This document shows, in pieces, positions 635 to 9,117 of a stretch of 64,000 bases of DNA (position 1 is the first letter of the stretch; each line of letters begins with the position of its first letter). The notes beneath the pieces were generated by a model. That model worked only from the letters and a program-made list of their open reading frames with translations, was not told the origin of the DNA and made no database searches. A program made the translations under genes and the position numbers. Origin of the DNA: Phyllobacterium myrsinacearum (GTDB lineage Bacteria; Pseudomonadota; Alphaproteobacteria; Rhizobiales; Rhizobiaceae); assembly GCF_002980555.1 (NCBI RefSeq), contig NZ_PVBT01000001.1, positions 186,001-250,000 on the forward strand, read 5' to 3'.

Positions 635-1225
635 ATGGCAAAACTCTATTTCAGCTACTCCACAATGAACGCCGGCAAGTCCACCATGCTCCTGCAGGCG
701 TCCTACAATTATCAGGAACGCGGCATGCGGACGATGATGTTCACGGCTGCGCACTATGCGGAAAATGGCGCCGGCGTCATTTCCTCCCGTCTTGGCGTGA
801 CCGCTGCGGCCGAGCTTTACCGCGAGGAGGACAATCTTTTCGACCGGATTGCATCGGCGCATGGCGAGAATGCATTGAGCTGCGTTTTCGTTGATGAGGC
901 GCAGTTCCTCACCCGGGACCAGGTCTGGCAACTGGCACGCGTTGCCGACCGGCTGCATCTGCCCGTGATGTGTTTCGGGCTTCGCACAGACTTTCAGGGC
1001 AAGCTCTTTCCCGGTTCGGCCGAATTGCTGGCCATCGCCGATACGCTGCGGGAGATCAGGACCATCTGCCATTGCGGCTCGAAGGCGACCATGGTGGTCC
1101 GGCACGATTCGACGGGCAAGGCGATCACTGAAGGAGACCAGGTATCCATCGAAAAATCCGTGTATGTCTCGCTTTGCCGCAAGCATTGGGAAGAAGAAAC
1201 CGGGCGGATTGCTTTGGACCCTTAG
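635..1225 (+). CDS. tdk: Thymidine kinase
   Basis: Type II thymidine kinase of 196 residues, which phosphorylates thymidine to dTMP with ATP in the salvage pathway. The P-loop STMNAGKST lies at residues 9-17. The DEAQF motif at 87-91 supplies the catalytic Glu88. The zinc-binding lasso domain is complete: Cys145, Cys147, Cys181 and His184. Length and motif spacing match the bacterial family. The ATG at 635 is the only sensible start. It is transcribed away from choX and is followed by a good intrinsic terminator, so it is probably a single-gene unit. Confidence 0.95.
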   Translation: MAKLYFSYSTMNAGKSTMLLQASYNYQERGMRTMMFTAAHYAENGAGVISSRLGVTAAAELYREEDNLFDRIASAHGENALSCVFVDEAQFLTRDQVWQLARVADRLHLPVMCFGLRTDFQGKLFPGSAELLAIADTLREIRTICHCGSKATMVVRHDSTGKAITEGDQVSIEKSVYVSLCRKHWEEETGRIALDP

Positions 1226-1348: not shown

Positions 1349-2437
1349 ATGGCGAGCTTGCAGAGCTTTGATACCGAGATCGAAAAGACCCGGAACATGG
1401 TCAATGAGATGCGGACGAAAATAGACCAGTCCAGCGTCGTGCTCGACAAGTTCGCCAAGGCGGATACCGCGATTGGAAATCCTGACTTCGACATTGAAAA
1501 TGCCCGCATCGACGATGTCCTGCGCCAGCAGAAAGTGATGGAAGGCAATATTGCCGACCTGATCATCGGACTGGAAGATGCGACCAATGTCTTCGGTTCC
1601 GAATTTGAAAGCATGAAAAGTTATTCCGGCTGGGAAAAGCTGGTCGGCGTTTTCTCCAAGGACAAGATGCAGCGTCTGCGCACGGATCGCGTGCGCAACA
1701 TGTCGCTGGCCGGCAATCTGCAGGAACTGCTGTCGAAGTCCGACCGCATTGTTGGCATTCTCAAAGAGCAGAAGACCATTCTCGATGCGCGCTACAAGAC
1801 GTCGGAAGCCAGCCTTGCCAATGTGATCGAGCGCCGCAAGACAACAGTGGCGACGCTCGAAGCCACGCAGAAGCGCATCGAAGAGCTGAACCCGCTGCTG
1901 CTCGATATTGAAAACCGGATTGCCGCCTCCACCGATCAGGGCACCCGCGCCACGCTGGAAGGCGACCGCTCGAAACTGGCGACGGAATACAATGAGCGTC
2001 AGGCGAAAGAGCAGGAGCTTCTGGCGGAAAGCCAGACGCTGGAACGCTACACCTCCATGTTCCAGACATTCGTCGATTCGCTCAACAACCAGATCGCCGC
2101 GCAGAGCACGCTGATCAACAAATTGTCGATCGATACCGAACAGCGCATCGTTCTCTACAAGGCGCTGGAAGATTCCTTGAAGACGGCCGCCCAGCAGGAC
2201 GTTGCCCACAAGATCAATACCCTTGGCAGCCGCGTCGATACGGCGGCGGAAGAGACCATGGCTGGTGTTGGCGCCGCAGCGCAGAAACACATTGGCGACC
2301 TTCTGGAGATGCACGAGAAGAACATGGTCAGCACCCAGGATATCCAGCGGCGCAAGAAGCTCGCCGACGATGCATTCTCACGCCGTTTCTCGGAAGTCCT
2401 GAAGAAACACAATTCCGCTGACTACGTGCAGAATTAA
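1349..2437 (+). CDS. Coiled-coil protein of unknown function, first gene of five-gene operon
   Basis: A 362-residue soluble protein without signal peptide or membrane segment. It is rich in Glu, Lys, Gln and Leu with long heptad-like stretches around residues 130-250, so most of it should be helical coiled coil. The layout (N-terminal helices, a GWEKLVGVFSKDK stretch near 93, then long helices containing SKSDRIVGILKEQKTILDARY) reminds me of the TelA/toxic-anion-resistance fold, but this is a weak resemblance, not an identification. The stop codon overlaps the next start (TAATG at 2435-2439), which implies translational coupling. The five genes 1349-7934 are on one strand with gaps of 12 bp or less, so they likely act together. 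Function unknown. Confidence 0.85.
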   Translation: MASLQSFDTEIEKTRNMVNEMRTKIDQSSVVLDKFAKADTAIGNPDFDIENARIDDVLRQQKVMEGNIADLIIGLEDATNVFGSEFESMKSYSGWEKLVGVFSKDKMQRLRTDRVRNMSLAGNLQELLSKSDRIVGILKEQKTILDARYKTSEASLANVIERRKTTVATLEATQKRIEELNPLLLDIENRIAASTDQGTRATLEGDRSKLATEYNERQAKEQELLAESQTLERYTSMFQTFVDSLNNQIAAQSTLINKLSIDTEQRIVLYKALEDSLKTAAQQDVAHKINTLGSRVDTAAEETMAGVGAAAQKHIGDLLEMHEKNMVSTQDIQRRKKLADDAFSRRFSEVLKKHNSADYVQN

Positions 2438-3588
2438 TGGCTGGGAATGCTGATCTGACCGCCGCCGAACGCTATTTCGGTGCGATCCGCGCTGCGCTGG
2501 ACGGGCTGGATATTTTTCTCAACAACCAGCAGTCGCCGCTCTACAAGCACGATCTCGTCGCCCAGACCGTATCGGAATATTTGCGGCGGCTGGAAGCCTC
2601 CTTCGAATGCTGGCGCAACCGGATCGGCTTTACCGACCGGTTCCAGATTTCGCGCGCCGAAAGCGGCTTTCCGGTTTTCCAGAATGTGCTGGAACTGGAA
2701 AATGACAAGCGGGACACCAGGGCCCGGCTGGCGGCCATTCCGCCAGCGGCAGCGCTGCGCCATGAAATGGCGGATTTCATCCTGCGGCACCGCGCCTTTC
2801 CGCGCGATCTGCAGAAATCGATGGCGGAGCGGATTTATCTGGAAGCGGTCGAGCAGGGCGAGGTTTTCTCGCCCTTCATCCTGCCGGTGACCATCCGCGT
2901 TTCAGTCAATCCAAAGACCATGCGGCCGCTCTACGTGGTGCACTGGGGCGCCTTTGACGGCGCTTCCAACCTGCCGCTGATCTATATGGCGATCATCGAG
3001 GATTCGTCGGACGGCCTCGTGGAAACCCTCGTGGGCAGGGATGGCAAGCTCAATCCCGGCGTGCGGATTCCGCTGCCTGTCGGCGGCCTGCTCAATCCGG
3101 AACTGGCGCGGCGTTTTGACGATTTCGCCGCCAAGAATTCGGCCTATTCGCTGTCGCCGGTCACGATTGCGACAAGCCTCGATACGGATTTTCCGGAGCT
3201 TCACCCCAAGCAGTTGCGGCGCGTGGTTCTCGGGCCGTTCTATACGACGGGTATTACCGAGCATAACCAGACGGTTGCCGACGTTCTGGAACGCGTGCGC
3301 AAGCCGGAGGATGCCTGGCTTCTGACATGGACCATGCAGGAGGTTTTCTCCAAGGCGGAACGGCCGGGAAAGCGGGGGCTGTGGTCGTCGGAGCCGGCGC
3401 GCGAGGAGTTCTATATCAATACGGATGATCTGGAGGCGGCCCGGCAGGGCGTCAGCAGTTACGAACAGCACGCGCTGGTGCCGCACGAAGCCTATCAGGC
3501 GCTCTATGCCTCGGGCGAGGCCAGCCGCATTTTCAGCGGGTTCAAAACCCATATCCTGTCCAATGGCCAGGTCATCAGCGACATTTAG
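2437..3588 (+). CDS. Conserved-type soluble protein of unknown function, operon gene 2
   Basis: A 383-residue protein with no signal peptide or membrane segment. The start ATG overlaps the preceding stop by one base. The N-terminal 140 residues look helical; from about 150 the sequence becomes beta-rich (PFILPVTIRVSVNPKT, PLYVVHWGAFDG). I recognise no catalytic motif. It is followed 12 bp later by the AAA ATPase gene, so it may be an adaptor or substrate-binding partner of that ATPase; this is inferred only from the gene order. Confidence 0.8.
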   Translation: MAGNADLTAAERYFGAIRAALDGLDIFLNNQQSPLYKHDLVAQTVSEYLRRLEASFECWRNRIGFTDRFQISRAESGFPVFQNVLELENDKRDTRARLAAIPPAAALRHEMADFILRHRAFPRDLQKSMAERIYLEAVEQGEVFSPFILPVTIRVSVNPKTMRPLYVVHWGAFDGASNLPLIYMAIIEDSSDGLVETLVGRDGKLNPGVRIPLPVGGLLNPELARRFDDFAAKNSAYSLSPVTIATSLDTDFPELHPKQLRRVVLGPFYTTGITEHNQTVADVLERVRKPEDAWLLTWTMQEVFSKAERPGKRGLWSSEPAREEFYINTDDLEAARQGVSSYEQHALVPHEAYQALYASGEASRIFSGFKTHILSNGQVISDI

Positions 3589-3600
3589 GGGAGCACGATC

Positions 3601-5511
3601 ATGGATGTCGGTTTGACCACCATCGACGAGAAGGACATCACCAAGCATCTGCCGGTGGCGCAGGCCATGGTCACGCGCTTTGTCGTGCTGGAATCGGGCG
3701 ATGCGAAATCCGGGACCGAGCTTGCCGGTACCGGGCGGCGGTTTGTCTCAACCGTTTCGACCGGCGGTTTGCGGTCAACGCGCGAGGTGGATCTGACCAG
3801 GACAATCCAGGCCGTCCGTCCTGATGACCAGATGCTGTCCATCGCCCAGCACACGCTGTTGTTCCGGGTGCGCCGTGGCGTGGCGGTGGCATTGGCTGTT
3901 GCCGATGTTTTCGGCCGGCAGAGCGATCTGGAGAACCTTTTGGCGCGCAATGCCTCGGCACCCCTGCAGGGAGAAGATGCCAGCCATTTCAAGAAGCTCT
4001 TGTCCGCCGCTGCCTACGTCTCGGCCTTTGCGCTGGCTGCCTATCTCGGCCAGCTGATCGAAGCGGATAGCCAGGCCGCCAATGATGTGACGGTTGCGGA
4101 ATTCAATTTCGACACGGCGCAGGATGCACTGAAATCCATCGTCGGCGGTTTGGACCGGGCGATTGCCGGTGCCGCCGATGAACAGACCATGCTGGCGCGG
4201 GCGAAGGCCTATGCTGCTGCGGCCATTGAAGGCCTGCTGCAGCGCAAGGGGCGTTTTGACGGGCTTGGCAGTTTTGAAGACACGCATCTGCGTCTCGACA
4301 GCGACGATTTCACGCTTGACGGTTTCGATGTAGCGCCGGGCAAGAAGCGCACGCCCTTGGTGATGACCTTCAAAAAGCCGGATGAAGTCATCGGTAATCA
4401 CATTGCCAAATATCAGGCGCTGAAGCTGTCAAAGATGCTGATGGCCTATGATTTCGACCGGCAGCTCAACCCGTTCGTCGAGCTGGGCGGCTTTCTGTTC
4501 ACCTTCATCGGCGACGGCGCACCCGGCACGGGCAAGACGACGCTGATCCAGATGATTGCCGGTCTCGTCAACGATTACTGCCAGGTGGCGGGCTATGCCT
4601 TCCACTACGAGAATTTCGGCGTCGACCAGATTTCCTCCTATCAGGGAAAATCCGGGCAGAACTGCCGACAATTCGTCAACAACGTGCTCAATCCGCGCGT
4701 GATCGGCTTCGGTACCATCGACGATATCGATCAGGTTGCGGCGCGGCGTTCCGACGACCGGGCGTCTGCCGGCCAGCAGGAAATTACCGGCGTGCTGATG
4801 GAAGCTTTTGCCGGGGCATCGACGGTGGTGCGCGGCAATTGCGCGTTCGGCATGTTCTCCAACTATCCGGAGAATGTCGACGATGCACTGCGCCAGCGCG
4901 CCGGGGCGCGCTGGCTGGTGGACGGGCCGCAGACGCGCAACGATTACATCGATATCTTTGCGCTGCTCGCCGGCAAGAACCACAGGATTCCGCTGGGTGA
5001 ACACAAGCTGTTCGAAGACCAGCAGATCGAACGCGCCGTGGATGCCGCCTATGAACAATTGTCGAAGCCGCAGGAAGACGGGCTGAAAGCGGTGTATGAG
5101 CGCTTCATTTCCGAGAACGGCGAACCGGAAACGCTTGCCGATATCGGCACCTATCTGCACATGATCAAGGAGCGCGAGCCGCGTTTCACCGGCCGCGCCA
5201 TCAAGAATGTGACGGATGCGATCAAGATGCGCGCCATGGACATCGAACTGCCGGATGAGTGGTTCGAAAAGCCCGAGACCTTCATGCACAAACCCTACGA
5301 CGACAAGAAGGCAATGGTTGAGGAACTGCGCAAGCCCTTCACCATGGAGATGGTGCTGCAGGAAACCAACCGGTATGCGGATTCGGAATTCCGTTATGCC
5401 GACAAGTCCGACGATGCCGCCGTGGAGAAAATCGTTCGCGATGCGCGCCTGCGCGAACGGGCGATCAGGGAAGTGGAAGCCCTGAAAGCCAGGGGGCAGT
5501 GGGACGCCTGA
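3601..5511 (+). CDS. AAA-type ATPase with long N-terminal domain, operon gene 3
   Basis: A 636-residue ATPase. The P-loop GAPGTGKTT is at residues 306-314, and a Walker B-like strand VIGFGTIDDID is at 367-377. A segment with FGMFSNYPENVDDALRQRAG, near residues 417-436, fits the sensor-1/arginine-finger part of an AAA module. The first 300 residues contain no known motif and include a hydrophobic helix around 137-150 (AAYVSAFALAAYLG). No protease or helicase domain is visible, so it is more likely a remodelling ATPase. SD-like GGGGAG lies upstream of the ATG at 3601. The stop overlaps the next start (TGATG at 5509-5513). It is the probable motor of the five-gene system. Confidence 0.88.
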   Translation: MDVGLTTIDEKDITKHLPVAQAMVTRFVVLESGDAKSGTELAGTGRRFVSTVSTGGLRSTREVDLTRTIQAVRPDDQMLSIAQHTLLFRVRRGVAVALAVADVFGRQSDLENLLARNASAPLQGEDASHFKKLLSAAAYVSAFALAAYLGQLIEADSQAANDVTVAEFNFDTAQDALKSIVGGLDRAIAGAADEQTMLARAKAYAAAAIEGLLQRKGRFDGLGSFEDTHLRLDSDDFTLDGFDVAPGKKRTPLVMTFKKPDEVIGNHIAKYQALKLSKMLMAYDFDRQLNPFVELGGFLFTFIGDGAPGTGKTTLIQMIAGLVNDYCQVAGYAFHYENFGVDQISSYQGKSGQNCRQFVNNVLNPRVIGFGTIDDIDQVAARRSDDRASAGQQEITGVLMEAFAGASTVVRGNCAFGMFSNYPENVDDALRQRAGARWLVDGPQTRNDYIDIFALLAGKNHRIPLGEHKLFEDQQIERAVDAAYEQLSKPQEDGLKAVYERFISENGEPETLADIGTYLHMIKEREPRFTGRAIKNVTDAIKMRAMDIELPDEWFEKPETFMHKPYDDKKAMVEELRKPFTMEMVLQETNRYADSEFRYADKSDDAAVEKIVRDARLRERAIREVEALKARGQWDA

Positions 5512-6797
5512 TGGACCTCCTCTATGAAAACGAACTGATCTACGGGCGTCTGCTGACGATCGACCAGCCGCATCTGATTGAACGCTACAACCGGGCGCTG
5601 ACGGCTTTTGGCTTCAAGGCAACCGAACTTGCGCGGTTCAATATTGACCGGACGGGATTCTCGCCGGAAATCGCCGCTGAGCTGAAGGACCCGTCCTATC
5701 TCGATCCCAATGGCGTCAACCGCCGCTTCATCATTCTGACGCCGGATCAGGCGACGCTGCCGGTGGTTCACACGCAGTTCTCCAACACGTCCCAGCTGAT
5801 GTACGAGTTTTTCAGCAGCAATGCGCGGGCGATCAACGCGCTGACCATCAAGGATGTGATCTTCGGCGAGATCGAGGACAGTGTTTCCATTGTCAACGAC
5901 ATCGAGGATCTGCTGTCGATCAATCAGGTCGAGTTCCGCGTCCTTTCCGCTGAAAACGTCATGGGGCAGGCGGCGGAACTGCGTCTCTTGGTGGACCGGC
6001 TGCAGAACGAGCCGAACACCTGGCGCGACGACGATCTCATCAACCGCATGGTCGACCTTGCCAAGGTCACCGGCGATATCCGCGAGAATTCACTGGTGCC
6101 CGACAAGGTGGTGTTCCGCCACAGCGCCTTCTGGACCAGCCATTTCGGCGGCATCTATATCTTTGTCGATGACAATACGACAACGGTCATCGGCGATTCC
6201 GCTGCTCCCGGTTTCCGCCGCTCGCGCCCCTGGCAGGTCAATTACATCTCGATCAAGGATGCCGACCAGGTGTTCCAGTTTCTTGCCGCGACGGGGCGTA
6301 TCGAGTTGCCGCGCGGCTCGTGGATCGAGCAGTCGGGCTATCTGGAAAACCGCGGCGAGATGATCATCCGCCATCTCATCCAGACGCTTGAACCGGAACG
6401 CAATCTGAGCGGCATTGACCGCATCTGGCTGCAGACCTGGATTCACGCCAATGCCAGCCTGATCAATCATGACGGGACATGGCCGTTCCTGAACGCCGCG
6501 AAACGTGAAATTGCCCAGACAGGGCAGATCAACCTCTCCGAGATCGATCCGGCGCGCCGTTTTCTGGTGGTGCGGGCGCTCCCAAGCCATCCCGATGCCT
6601 GGCTGGTCAATCAGCTGATCAGTGATTTTGTCCCGTGGGATTTCCTGTCGCGCTACATCTTCAACAAGCAGGGCTTCTACGCCGATTACGGCCGCTGGAA
6701 CCCCGCCTATCAGGAACACGTTGTCGATATACTCAAAACCACCTATTTGAAGGACAAGGAAGGGCTGCGCAGGCGGCTCTACGGTCTCACCTCCTAG
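5511..6797 (+). CDS. Soluble protein of unknown function, operon gene 4
   Basis: A 428-residue protein starting at the ATG that overlaps the ATPase stop; a GTG at 5499 in the same frame is possible but the coupled ATG is preferred. There is no signal peptide or membrane segment. The sequence has mixed alpha/beta character with conserved-looking aromatic stretches (FWTSHFGGIYIFVDD, TWPFLNAAKREIAQ). I recognise no catalytic motif. Close coupling to the AAA gene suggests a partner or substrate recognition subunit, but this is inference. The next gene starts 12 bp after its stop. Confidence 0.8.
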   Translation: MDLLYENELIYGRLLTIDQPHLIERYNRALTAFGFKATELARFNIDRTGFSPEIAAELKDPSYLDPNGVNRRFIILTPDQATLPVVHTQFSNTSQLMYEFFSSNARAINALTIKDVIFGEIEDSVSIVNDIEDLLSINQVEFRVLSAENVMGQAAELRLLVDRLQNEPNTWRDDDLINRMVDLAKVTGDIRENSLVPDKVVFRHSAFWTSHFGGIYIFVDDNTTTVIGDSAAPGFRRSRPWQVNYISIKDADQVFQFLAATGRIELPRGSWIEQSGYLENRGEMIIRHLIQTLEPERNLSGIDRIWLQTWIHANASLINHDGTWPFLNAAKREIAQTGQINLSEIDPARRFLVVRALPSHPDAWLVNQLISDFVPWDFLSRYIFNKQGFYADYGRWNPAYQEHVVDILKTTYLKDKEGLRRRLYGLTS

Positions 6798-6809
6798 CAA
6801 GGATGCACA

Positions 6810-7934
6810 ATGCTCGATCCCGTCATCAACTTCTTCAGCCGGATTTTCTATCTGATCGGACGCGGCATCGGCTATGCGGTCGGTATCCTCCTGTGGCCGT
6901 TCCTGTGGGCAGGGCGCTGGTACACCCAGCGCGGCTGGATCCTGAAGGCAGTCGTGGGTGCAATACTCATTCTCTGGGTCGGGCTTTACGGTTATTTCTT
7001 CTGGGTCACGCAGGTCTGGACGAATTTCAATCCGGACTACGTCGCCGCCTATAATTTCGACAAACGTGACGTTGCTGCCGGCGAACCGGTTGCTGCACAA
7101 GCCGTCGGGACGGCGCCCAAGAGCTGCGCCCGGTCGGCCATTGTGGAAGTCACGGCTGACCTTACCGATTTCAACGTGAACCAGAATGCCTGGATTTCCT
7201 CCATGCTGCTGTTCAAGCTCGGTTTCTTCGGCATGTCGTGGGACGATACGCCCTTCCTCGACAACAAGGCGGCGTTCCAGCGCGGTATCAACTCCGCCGT
7301 GCGGCGGACAGCTGTCGAGCTTGTTGACACGCTTGGCCGCGTCCGCGGTACATCGCAGATCGATAATGATCTGCAGAAAGCGCGCGGCAATCTGCAGTTC
7401 ACCGAGGATGCATGGTATTTTGGCCTCAACCCGTTTGGCCCCAAGACCCCAACCCCGAGCTACTACCGCTCGGCGGTCAAAGACCTCAGGACGTTCAATT
7501 CGAAACTTGAAACCTGCAGTGCCGTATTCGATGCTCGTGCCGACAATCTCATGCAATTCATCGACCGTATCGCCAATGATATCGGCTCTACCTCCGCCAT
7601 CCTGAAGGATCGCTCGGAGAAGAACAATTATGGCTGGTTCGATACCCGTGCGGATGACCGGTTCTGGTTCGCCTATGGCCAGCTCTACGCCTATTACGGT
7701 CTGATGAATGCGGCGAAGGTCGACTTCAAGCAGGTCGTGCAGCAGAAGAATCTGGCTCCCCTGTGGGATGGCATGGACGGACAGCTCCGTTCGGCGCTCA
7801 ACATAACGCCATGGATCATCGCCAATGGCAGCGAGGGCGGTTGGTTGTTGCCCAACCATCTGACAACCATGGGTTTCTATATCCTGCGCGTGCGTTCCAA
7901 TTTGATTGATATCAAGCAGGTTCTGCAGCAATAA
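6810..7934 (+). CDS. DUF2333-like membrane protein, operon gene 5
   Basis: A 374-residue protein with two hydrophobic N-terminal segments, about residues 5-35 and 44-67 (ILKAVVGAILILWVGLYGYF), followed by a roughly 300-residue hydrophilic domain expected in the periplasm. The overall layout matches what I recall of the uncharacterised DUF2333 family. It is the only clear membrane protein of the operon and would anchor the ATPase and its soluble partners to the inner membrane. Its last codons (DI-K-VLQQ-stop) were copied in the tandem duplication that follows. Function unknown. Confidence 0.82.
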   Translation: MLDPVINFFSRIFYLIGRGIGYAVGILLWPFLWAGRWYTQRGWILKAVVGAILILWVGLYGYFFWVTQVWTNFNPDYVAAYNFDKRDVAAGEPVAAQAVGTAPKSCARSAIVEVTADLTDFNVNQNAWISSMLLFKLGFFGMSWDDTPFLDNKAAFQRGINSAVRRTAVELVDTLGRVRGTSQIDNDLQKARGNLQFTEDAWYFGLNPFGPKTPTPSYYRSAVKDLRTFNSKLETCSAVFDARADNLMQFIDRIANDIGSTSAILKDRSEKNNYGWFDTRADDRFWFAYGQLYAYYGLMNAAKVDFKQVVQQKNLAPLWDGMDGQLRSALNITPWIIANGSEGGWLLPNHLTTMGFYILRVRSNLIDIKQVLQQ

Positions 7935-8018
7935 GTGGACTTGGGCGGGTAAAATGCTATATTTAGCCTTGGAGTGAGGGCGAGCTTTCGCCCACCCTCT
8001 TTCCTGGTTACATGAATC

Positions 8019-8058
8019 GGATCCGGAGGATCACTTGCCAGCGATTCCGGATCCTTTT
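8019..8058 (+). terminator. Intrinsic terminator, copy 1 of duplicated region
   Basis: GGATCCGGA (8019-8027) pairs with TCCGGATCC (8046-8054), followed by TTTT. An additional shorter hairpin GGGCGA-GCTT-TCGCCC lies at 7978-7993. Together they should end the five-gene operon. Confidence 0.7.
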
Positions 8059-8399
8059 CATTTCCAGGGTGATGCTGAAGGGTTTAAACCACATCGCTCC
8101 ACCTCCAAGTTTGAAAGCATGGCTGATGCCGCAGCCGGAGCAGCCCATCTCCTCCGATACACCGCTGGCCCGGTGCTGTTGCTTTTGCCTTCAACACGTC
8201 CATTGATGACGAAGTGCGACCGGTTCGGCAACGAACGGGGAGTTGTGTGGCAATAGGTATCCGGTTGCAGGTCGATCAAACTGGAGCGACATCAAGCGGG
8301 TTCTGCAGCAATAAGTGGACTTGGGCGGGTAAAATGCTATATTTGGTCTTGGAGTGAGGGCGAGCTTTCGCCCACCCTCTTTCCTGGCTACTTGAAAAG

Positions 8400-8438
8400 A
8401 ACCCGGATAGTGACTTGCCAGCCAGTCCGGGTTTTTTT
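8400..8438 (+). terminator. Intrinsic terminator, copy 2, with compensatory changes
   Basis: AACCCGGA (8400-8407) pairs with TCCGGGTT (8426-8433) and runs into seven T. Relative to copy 1, both arms changed so that pairing is kept, which supports a functional hairpin. The shorter GGGCGA/TCGCCC hairpin is also repeated at 8358-8373. Confidence 0.72.
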
Positions 8439-8655
8439 CATTTCCAGGGTGATGCTGAAGGGTTTAAACCACATCGCTCCACCTCCAAGTTTGAAAGCAT
8501 GGCTGATGCCGCAGCCGGAGCAGCCTATCTCCTCCGATACACCGCTGGCCCGGTGCTGTTGCTTTTGTTCTCAACCCGTCCATTGATGATGAAGTTCAAC
8601 CGGTTCGGCAACGAACGGGGAGTTGTGTGGCAATAGGTATCCGGTTGCAGGTCGA

Positions 8656-9117
8656 TCAAACCGGCAGGTGCGTGGTTTCCTTGACTTCTTCCATGACGGC
8701 ATAGGTATGCGTCTCGCGCACGCCCGGCAATGACAGCAGGGCATCGGAGAGAAAACGGCGATAATGTTCCATGTCGGCGACGCGCGCCTTGATCAGGTAA
8801 TCGAAACCGCCGGCAACCATGTGGCATTCCATCACGTCGGGGTTGCGCCGGGTCGCCGCGGCAAAGGTGGCAAAAACATCCGGGGTGGTGCGGTCCAGCT
8901 TGATTTCGACGAAGACCAGCATTGCGCGGTCGAGCTTTTTCGGCGACAGTCTGGCCGTGTAGCCAAGGATATAGCCGTCTCTTGTCAGGCGCTTGACCCG
9001 TTCCGTGGTCGCTGTTTGCGAGAGGCTGATACGCTCGGATAACTCGGTGTTGGAGAGCCGCCCGTCCTTCTGCAGCTCGCGCAAAATGCGCCGGTCAAGA
9101 CTGTCCAGGTTTTTCAT
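8656..9117 (-). CDS. putR: Lrp/AsnC-family regulator, probable PutR
   Basis: A 153-residue regulator with an N-terminal winged helix-turn-helix (LDRRILRELQKDGRLSNTEL, then SLSQTATTERVKRL at about 32-45) and a C-terminal RAM ligand-binding domain (GFDYLIKARVADMEHYRRFL). It is divergent from putA with 110 bp between the starts. In rhizobia and Agrobacterium the Lrp-type PutR activates putA in response to proline, and this location makes the same role very likely. Its last codons lie inside the tandem duplication that ends at 8661, but the frame is intact. Confidence 0.88.
   Translation of the reverse strand: MKNLDSLDRRILRELQKDGRLSNTELSERISLSQTATTERVKRLTRDGYILGYTARLSPKKLDRAMLVFVEIKLDRTTPDVFATFAAATRRNPDVMECHMVAGGFDYLIKARVADMEHYRRFLSDALLSLPGVRETHTYAVMEEVKETTHLPV

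Follow-up and report, generated by a model that had tools for sequence, protein, structure and literature searches.

The conserved unit described here is a four-gene core, G1-G2-G3-G4, accompanied by an exchangeable membrane protein, and it probably works (a probability of about 0.55) as a threading AAA+ motor, G3, coupled by the coiled-coil protein G1 to that inner-membrane protein, for envelope upkeep. It was found as an operon in a stretch of 64,000 nucleotides from Phyllobacterium myrsinacearum, which as a whole is called the window. The motor type is familiar; its partners G1, G2 and DUF6638 and the membrane proteins DUF2333 and DUF1523 have no function attached in the profile libraries used. 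Among the described systems tested, the whole module matched none, and the literature searched describes no function for it, in agreement with the initial annotation of this DNA. As the same genes are found in other bacteria and on a giant-phage-like fragment, the machine becomes testable.

Organization of the operon

The operon is given in Table 1 with its neighbors. The G1/G2 junction reads TAATG (2435-2439) and the G3/G4 junction TGATG (5509-5513), and 12-base gaps separate G2 from G3 (3589-3600) and G4 from G5 (6798-6809), so that both the ORF coordinates and the reading of the junctions bear out the initial description of five same-strand genes joined by such overlaps and gaps. A 300-bp direct repeat is present at window positions 7893-8192 and 8273-8572 (90% identical, spacing 380); its first copy starts within the 3' end of G5, thus part of the G5 tail has been duplicated with the sequence that follows.

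Table 1. Genes of the operon and neighboring genes in the window
Gene	Product	Position	Strand	Length (aa)	Remarks
thymidine kinase gene	thymidine kinase	635-1225			upstream of the operon
G1	coiled-coil protein	1349-2437	+	362	first core gene
G2	no known family	2437-3588	+	383	start overlaps G1 stop
G3	classical AAA ATPase	3601-5511	+	636	PF00004
G4	DUF6638 protein	5511-6797	+	428	PF20343; start overlaps G3 stop
G5	DUF2333 protein	6810-7934	+	374	PF10095; partner, outside the core
regulator gene	Lrp/AsnC-type regulator	8656-9117	opposite		downstream of the operon

Conservation of the four-gene core

With G4 as the query against genome contigs, 47 related loci were retrieved, the nearest being that of P. 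calauticae, whose G4 is 98% identical to the one in the window. All five genes are present in 45 of them, including one (L040) where the locus edge cuts G1 and 6 kb separates G3 from G4, and the contigs of the other two (3.9 and 5.5 kb) end within the locus. DUF6638 was detected in 26 and G1 relatives in 30 of 398 Pseudomonadota genomes sampled, and every one of the 26 DUF6638 genomes also carries G1 on the same contig and strand, about 4-6 kb away from start to start. The co-occurrence count that had been proposed for the five genes came out in favor of one system; what did not hold is the fixed number of five, since the conserved unit consists of the four core genes, and the membrane protein next to them can be exchanged. 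In a class-level sample DUF6638 was found in 4 of 240, and G3 is present in 24 of 40 relatives and in all 21 genus genomes examined, the genome of the window being included in both counts.

The order G1-G2-G3-G4 was found in rhizobia, in an alphaproteobacterial family (f40) and in a few further lineages (G250, G523), as well as in a genome of another class (G320), the proteins of which fall within the f40 group. The ordered core is also carried by a 1.3-Mb plasmid of R. leguminosarum and by large Vibrio plasmids (ten plasmid records with G4 in all, four of them from Vibrio, of which two were read). The rhizobial copies have a fixed position, flanked by tdk, cho genes and fhs. This conservation of the flanks would suit neighbors that are conserved together without any joint function, but the core order is kept amid different flanks in rhizobia, f40, Vibrio, the R. 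leguminosarum plasmid and the phage-like contig discussed below, which contradicts such an account and makes it very improbable.

Regarding the surroundings of the plasmid copies, the core on R. leguminosarum pRlX5 is directly followed by a sigma-70 gene (L018:9503-11539) that is full-length, comprises regions 1.1 to 4 and encodes a primary-type sigma factor. On the large Vibrio plasmids (L015, L017), the core is preceded by two small genes with no family above the cut-off and followed by a gene annotated as mfd (transcription-repair coupling factor).

The AAA motor

G3 matches Pfam PF00004 above the curated cut-off (E 2.3e-11, 44.7 bits, cut-off 21.2), and 103 positions are invariant in the 70 aligned sequences. 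The P-loop that had been placed at residues 306-314 is there, as GAPGTGKTT, and in the Walker A motif GDGxPGTGKT the residues G306 and P308-T313 are invariant, as are Y347-Q348-G349-K350-S351, the sensor-1 asparagine N421 and the arginines R431, R433 and R437. In the HMMER alignment with an i-AAA protease domain (5ubv), YQG lies opposite YVG and IDDID opposite IDELD, and we take Y347-Q348-G349 to be the aromatic-X-Gly pore loop 1. In classical AAA ATPases, an aromatic-X-Gly loop at the pore position grips the substrate, which makes threading the most likely activity of G3, as judged from the position of this loop. These motor motifs support the initial assignment of an AAA remodeller.

The best PDB sequence matches of G3 are threading AAA proteins, namely i-AAA protease, Afg2 and proteasomal Rpt (E 4.4e-5 and weaker), and it shares with the classical threading ATPases Walker A, the pore-loop position and the sensor-1 asparagine. 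It differs from them in an N-terminal region of its own of about 280 residues and in Walker B, which is Asp-Asp (D374-D375) in all 70 sequences, the usual glutamate being replaced, so that it departs from the Asp-Glu pattern; unlike i-AAA protease, it also has no protease domain. On its whole-domain match, G3 is classed as a variant classical AAA ATPase despite this Walker B. Having an aspartate at the catalytic glutamate position, G3 may hydrolyze ATP slowly or in an altered manner, and this aspartate counts against the threading-motor reading.

The MoxR-vWA chaperone pairs resemble the module in combining an AAA ATPase with partner proteins and are also found in jumbo phages, according to an excerpt of PMC7824862. 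However, PF07726 is absent from the G3 matches and no vWA domain was found among the five proteins (Pfam, E 1), so this system was rejected.

The core proteins G1, G2 and G4

The initial annotation had described two soluble proteins without recognized motifs. This holds for G2, for which searches of Pfam, NCBIfam, PHROGs and PADLOC gave nothing at E 1 and which is conserved beside G1 and G3 across the loci compared; it does not hold for G4, which belongs to DUF6638 (PF20343, E 4.5e-75, 253.6 bits, cut-off 27), a family with no assigned function found. G1 has no Pfam family above cut-off. Its AlphaFold2 (AF2) model shows long helices throughout (pLDDT 59.5, confident only at about residues 130-260), that of G2 is partial (pLDDT 56.8), and fold searches gave no family name.

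A wholly helical G1 model, together with the AAA motor and the coiled coil being the two most conserved partners, recalls an ESCRT-III/Vps4-like pair, in which G1 would polymerise on the membrane and G3 would disassemble the polymer. Neither Snf7 nor PspA_IM30 is among the families listed for G1, however, and the fold of the weak model matches generic coiled coils, which leaves this pair improbable. TelA, from the sub-membrane TelA/Ter systems, is similarly a helical protein of similar length and part of a gene cluster acting at the membrane, but none of the five genes belongs to the TerB, TerC or TerD families. The TelA profile (PF05816) does not match G1 of the window at E 10 and is absent from the 25 families that were listed across 38 G1 proteins, and hhalign of G1 against TelA gave a probability of 0.7%, equal to the reversed-alignment controls. 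In a BFVD fold search with the weak G1 model, TelA/tellurite-resistance models come at ranks 19 and 20, with E 0.028 and 0.031, and other coiled coils stand above them.

The exchangeable membrane partner

G5 is a DUF2333 protein, as had been suspected (PF10095, E 9.1e-25, 87.7 bits, cut-off 22), and in a hydropathy scan of the five proteins a membrane segment was predicted only in it, at residues 48-66. All 52 aligned proteins share the cysteines C106 and C236, which would fit a periplasmic disulphide. No function is given for DUF2333 in the literature searched. The family was found in 98 of the 398 Pseudomonadota genomes, yet only 11 of these carry the core, hence most members stand apart from it. 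Conversely, 11 of the 26 core genomes carry DUF2333, all belonging to the family of the window, against none of the other 15. A further locus from outside this sample and from another family (L069), with the same gene order, also has DUF2333 after G4.

In other lineages, a protein of a single BLAST cluster follows G4 in 12 of 14 loci (L066-L068 and L108-L118, L069 and the truncated L070 being left out), and the member scanned, from L066, is a DUF1523 protein (E 6.5e-68) with two predicted membrane segments. Neither a DUF2333 match nor a membrane neighbor was recognized for the copies on the plasmids of Vibrio and R. leguminosarum. The membrane partner is thus exchangeable, rhizobia having DUF2333, another lineage DUF1523 and the phage-like contig a DUF2333 that belongs to a different clade. 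Of the membrane-attached remodelling machine proposed initially, the membrane link stands, through DUF2333 in two clades or DUF1523, while a location of the ATPase itself at the membrane is something we infer.

Presumably, SMc02733 lies in the S. meliloti copy of the operon, as either G2 or G3. An excerpt of a DNA-binding screen for ChvI, an envelope regulator of S. meliloti, lists fragment F9 inside SMc02733 (PMC3687685).

Loci without the motor genes

Four genomes (G313, G372, G514 and G526) have a divergent G1 close to DUF2333 and no DUF6638. Both genes were called at three of these loci (L143, L144 and L146), without any G2, G3 or G4 being found there, and G1 is preceded by a gene from a cluster whose listed members resemble by eye the thymidine kinase of the window; in L145 (G372) both genes were missed by the simple gene caller, and the pair rests on the search coordinates. 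Compared to the window, the three loci, which are Rhizobium-like, show 23-30% identity in G1 and 58-64% in DUF2333, against 79-86% and 56-68%, respectively, in complete rhizobial loci outside Phyllobacterium. With G1 low and DUF2333 level, it is G1, not DUF2333, that changed where the motor genes are missing.

In 38 G1 proteins from full systems, 106 positions are conserved at the 90% level. These make 318 cells in the three reduced proteins, of which 111 retain the conserved residue. Within residues 281-320 only 2 of 42 cells do so, and two of the three proteins have a gap at residues 273-294. The stretch 281-320 is thus a candidate for contacting the motor genes, one among others, since residues 181-220 (2 of 21) and 1-40 (0 of 6) are poorly kept too.

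A copy on a phage-like contig

An IMG/VR contig of 359 kb carries, in a row, DUF2333, G1, G2, small ORFs, G3 and G4, and its G3 retains YQGK, FDDVD (Asp-Asp), the asparagine and the arginines. Against a phage, terminase and sheath profiles gave no match on it. In favor of a phage, the contig has a T4-type gp23 match of 28.5 bits (cut-off 24.4), which covers only 41 of 376 positions, and it has a chaperone and protease gene group of phage type: DnaJ, peptide deformylase and ClpA, found about 3.6 kb downstream of its G4, have the same order and strand in Sinorhizobium phage Phosso (469 kb), which is the best phage match of the contig deformylase and among the best of its ClpA; in Atu_ph07, DnaJ adjoins ClpA. 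SmpB and a gene with a DUF2201_N metallopeptidase domain stand just upstream of the module, making this a proteostasis-rich stretch, and group 2.2 jumbo phages are reported, in an excerpt of PMC7824862, with DnaJ, ClpA and a MoxR-vWA-metallopeptidase pair. The contig is taken as a jumbo phage, with residual doubt.

DUF2333 lies upstream of G1 on the contig, compared to downstream of G4 in rhizobia. In the tree, it groups with non-alphaproteobacterial DUF2333 (support 100/99), and the rhizobial proteins fall inside a separate alphaproteobacterial set (100/100). Because both the clade and the side of the core differ, DUF2333 appears to have been acquired by the core on at least two occasions; in situ replacement together with a move is the less favored alternative. 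The tree of the core, made by a quick method with weak forks and long branches, gives the phage-like copy no firm placement.

Proposed mechanism

G3 would form a ring and thread a polypeptide through its pore, the substrate being delivered by the coiled coil of G1 with G2 and G4 as adaptor or scaffold subunits. G1, with G2 and G4, would likewise couple G3 to an inner-membrane protein, bitopic or single-pass, that has a periplasmic domain; this protein would be DUF2333 for rhizobia and the phage-like contig, and DUF1523 for other lineages. ATP hydrolysis would then remodel, extract or disassemble either this membrane assembly or the scaffold formed by G1, and so help to maintain the cell envelope. 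The gene content, the co-occurrence, the motor motifs, the exchange of partners and the divergence of G1 without motor genes are direct observations; from them we infer the ring, threading, physical contacts, topology and envelope role.

This mechanism is preferred because the core order is kept across lineages and replicons, with G1 near DUF6638 in 26 of 26 genomes, because YQG is invariant and DUF2333 (of two clades, on different sides) or DUF1523 stands beside the core, and because G1 diverged while DUF2333 did not in the loci without G2-G4. Most DUF2333 genomes lacking the core, and the plasmid copies of Vibrio and R. leguminosarum lacking a recognized membrane neighbor, speak against it. 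The natural experiments, that is, G1 with DUF2333 in the absence of motor genes and DUF2333 beside the core in two clades, point to contacts worth testing and give a first handle on DUF2333, widespread as it is in the sampled genomes.

A broader proposal, put forward tentatively and with odds well below even, is that of a new AAA+ machine, a mobile four-gene cassette of alpha- and gammaproteobacteria, large plasmids and jumbo phages, which would dock via its coiled coil on DUF2333 or DUF1523 of the host and remodel either the inner membrane or the proteins in it; a phage would probably use it to gain control of the host envelope or to guard it. The phage-borne copy, if true, would link the machine to host take-over or exclusion.

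A possible conflict role and the G3-G4 junction

The main rival of the threading-motor mechanism is a conflict system, in which the module would alter the envelope against phage or plasmid entry, the jumbo-phage copy would exclude competitors and the G3-G4 junction would gain toxin- or nuclease-like genes. The complete module on the jumbo-phage-like contig and the core copies on large plasmids are in line with it, and a review proposes, in an excerpt, that jumbo-phage Ter systems, TelA included, act against superinfection (PMC7824862). In PADLOC-DB 2.0.0 at E 1, however, G1, G2, G4 and G5 have no match, those of G3 are weak (best E 9e-5, TRIP13), as any AAA protein may give, and the vertically fixed rhizobial position and the presence in 21 of 21 genus genomes look like housekeeping.

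The junctions were surveyed in 69 loci with four core genes, which are mutually related and include two nearly alike Vibrio loci; distances above 300 bp were found at G3-G4 in 23 of 69, G1-G2 in 6 of 69, G2-G3 in 0 of 69 and G4-G5 in 2 of 51. The long G3-G4 junctions also speak for a conflict role, as their inserts include DUF559 proteins (12 by BLAST, and L119 by cluster), an AbiJ_NTD4 protein (E 3.7e-10), a DUF3825 protein (E 1.8e-8), two DUF4145-like proteins (below cut-off) and, in three, small hydrophobic proteins, in a scan that left out the L064 insert and most of that of L040. They are varied, though, and mostly DUF559, and of the six run through PADLOC two gave weak matches (DUF559, E 8.2e-6; L113, E 0.033). 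The inserts would suit a conflict role, and mere tolerance of insertion just as well; conflict as the function of the module is considered rather unlikely. In S. meliloti Ak57, an IS4-family transposase, ISRm16, is located between the DUF559 insert and G4 (L016:7642-8805).
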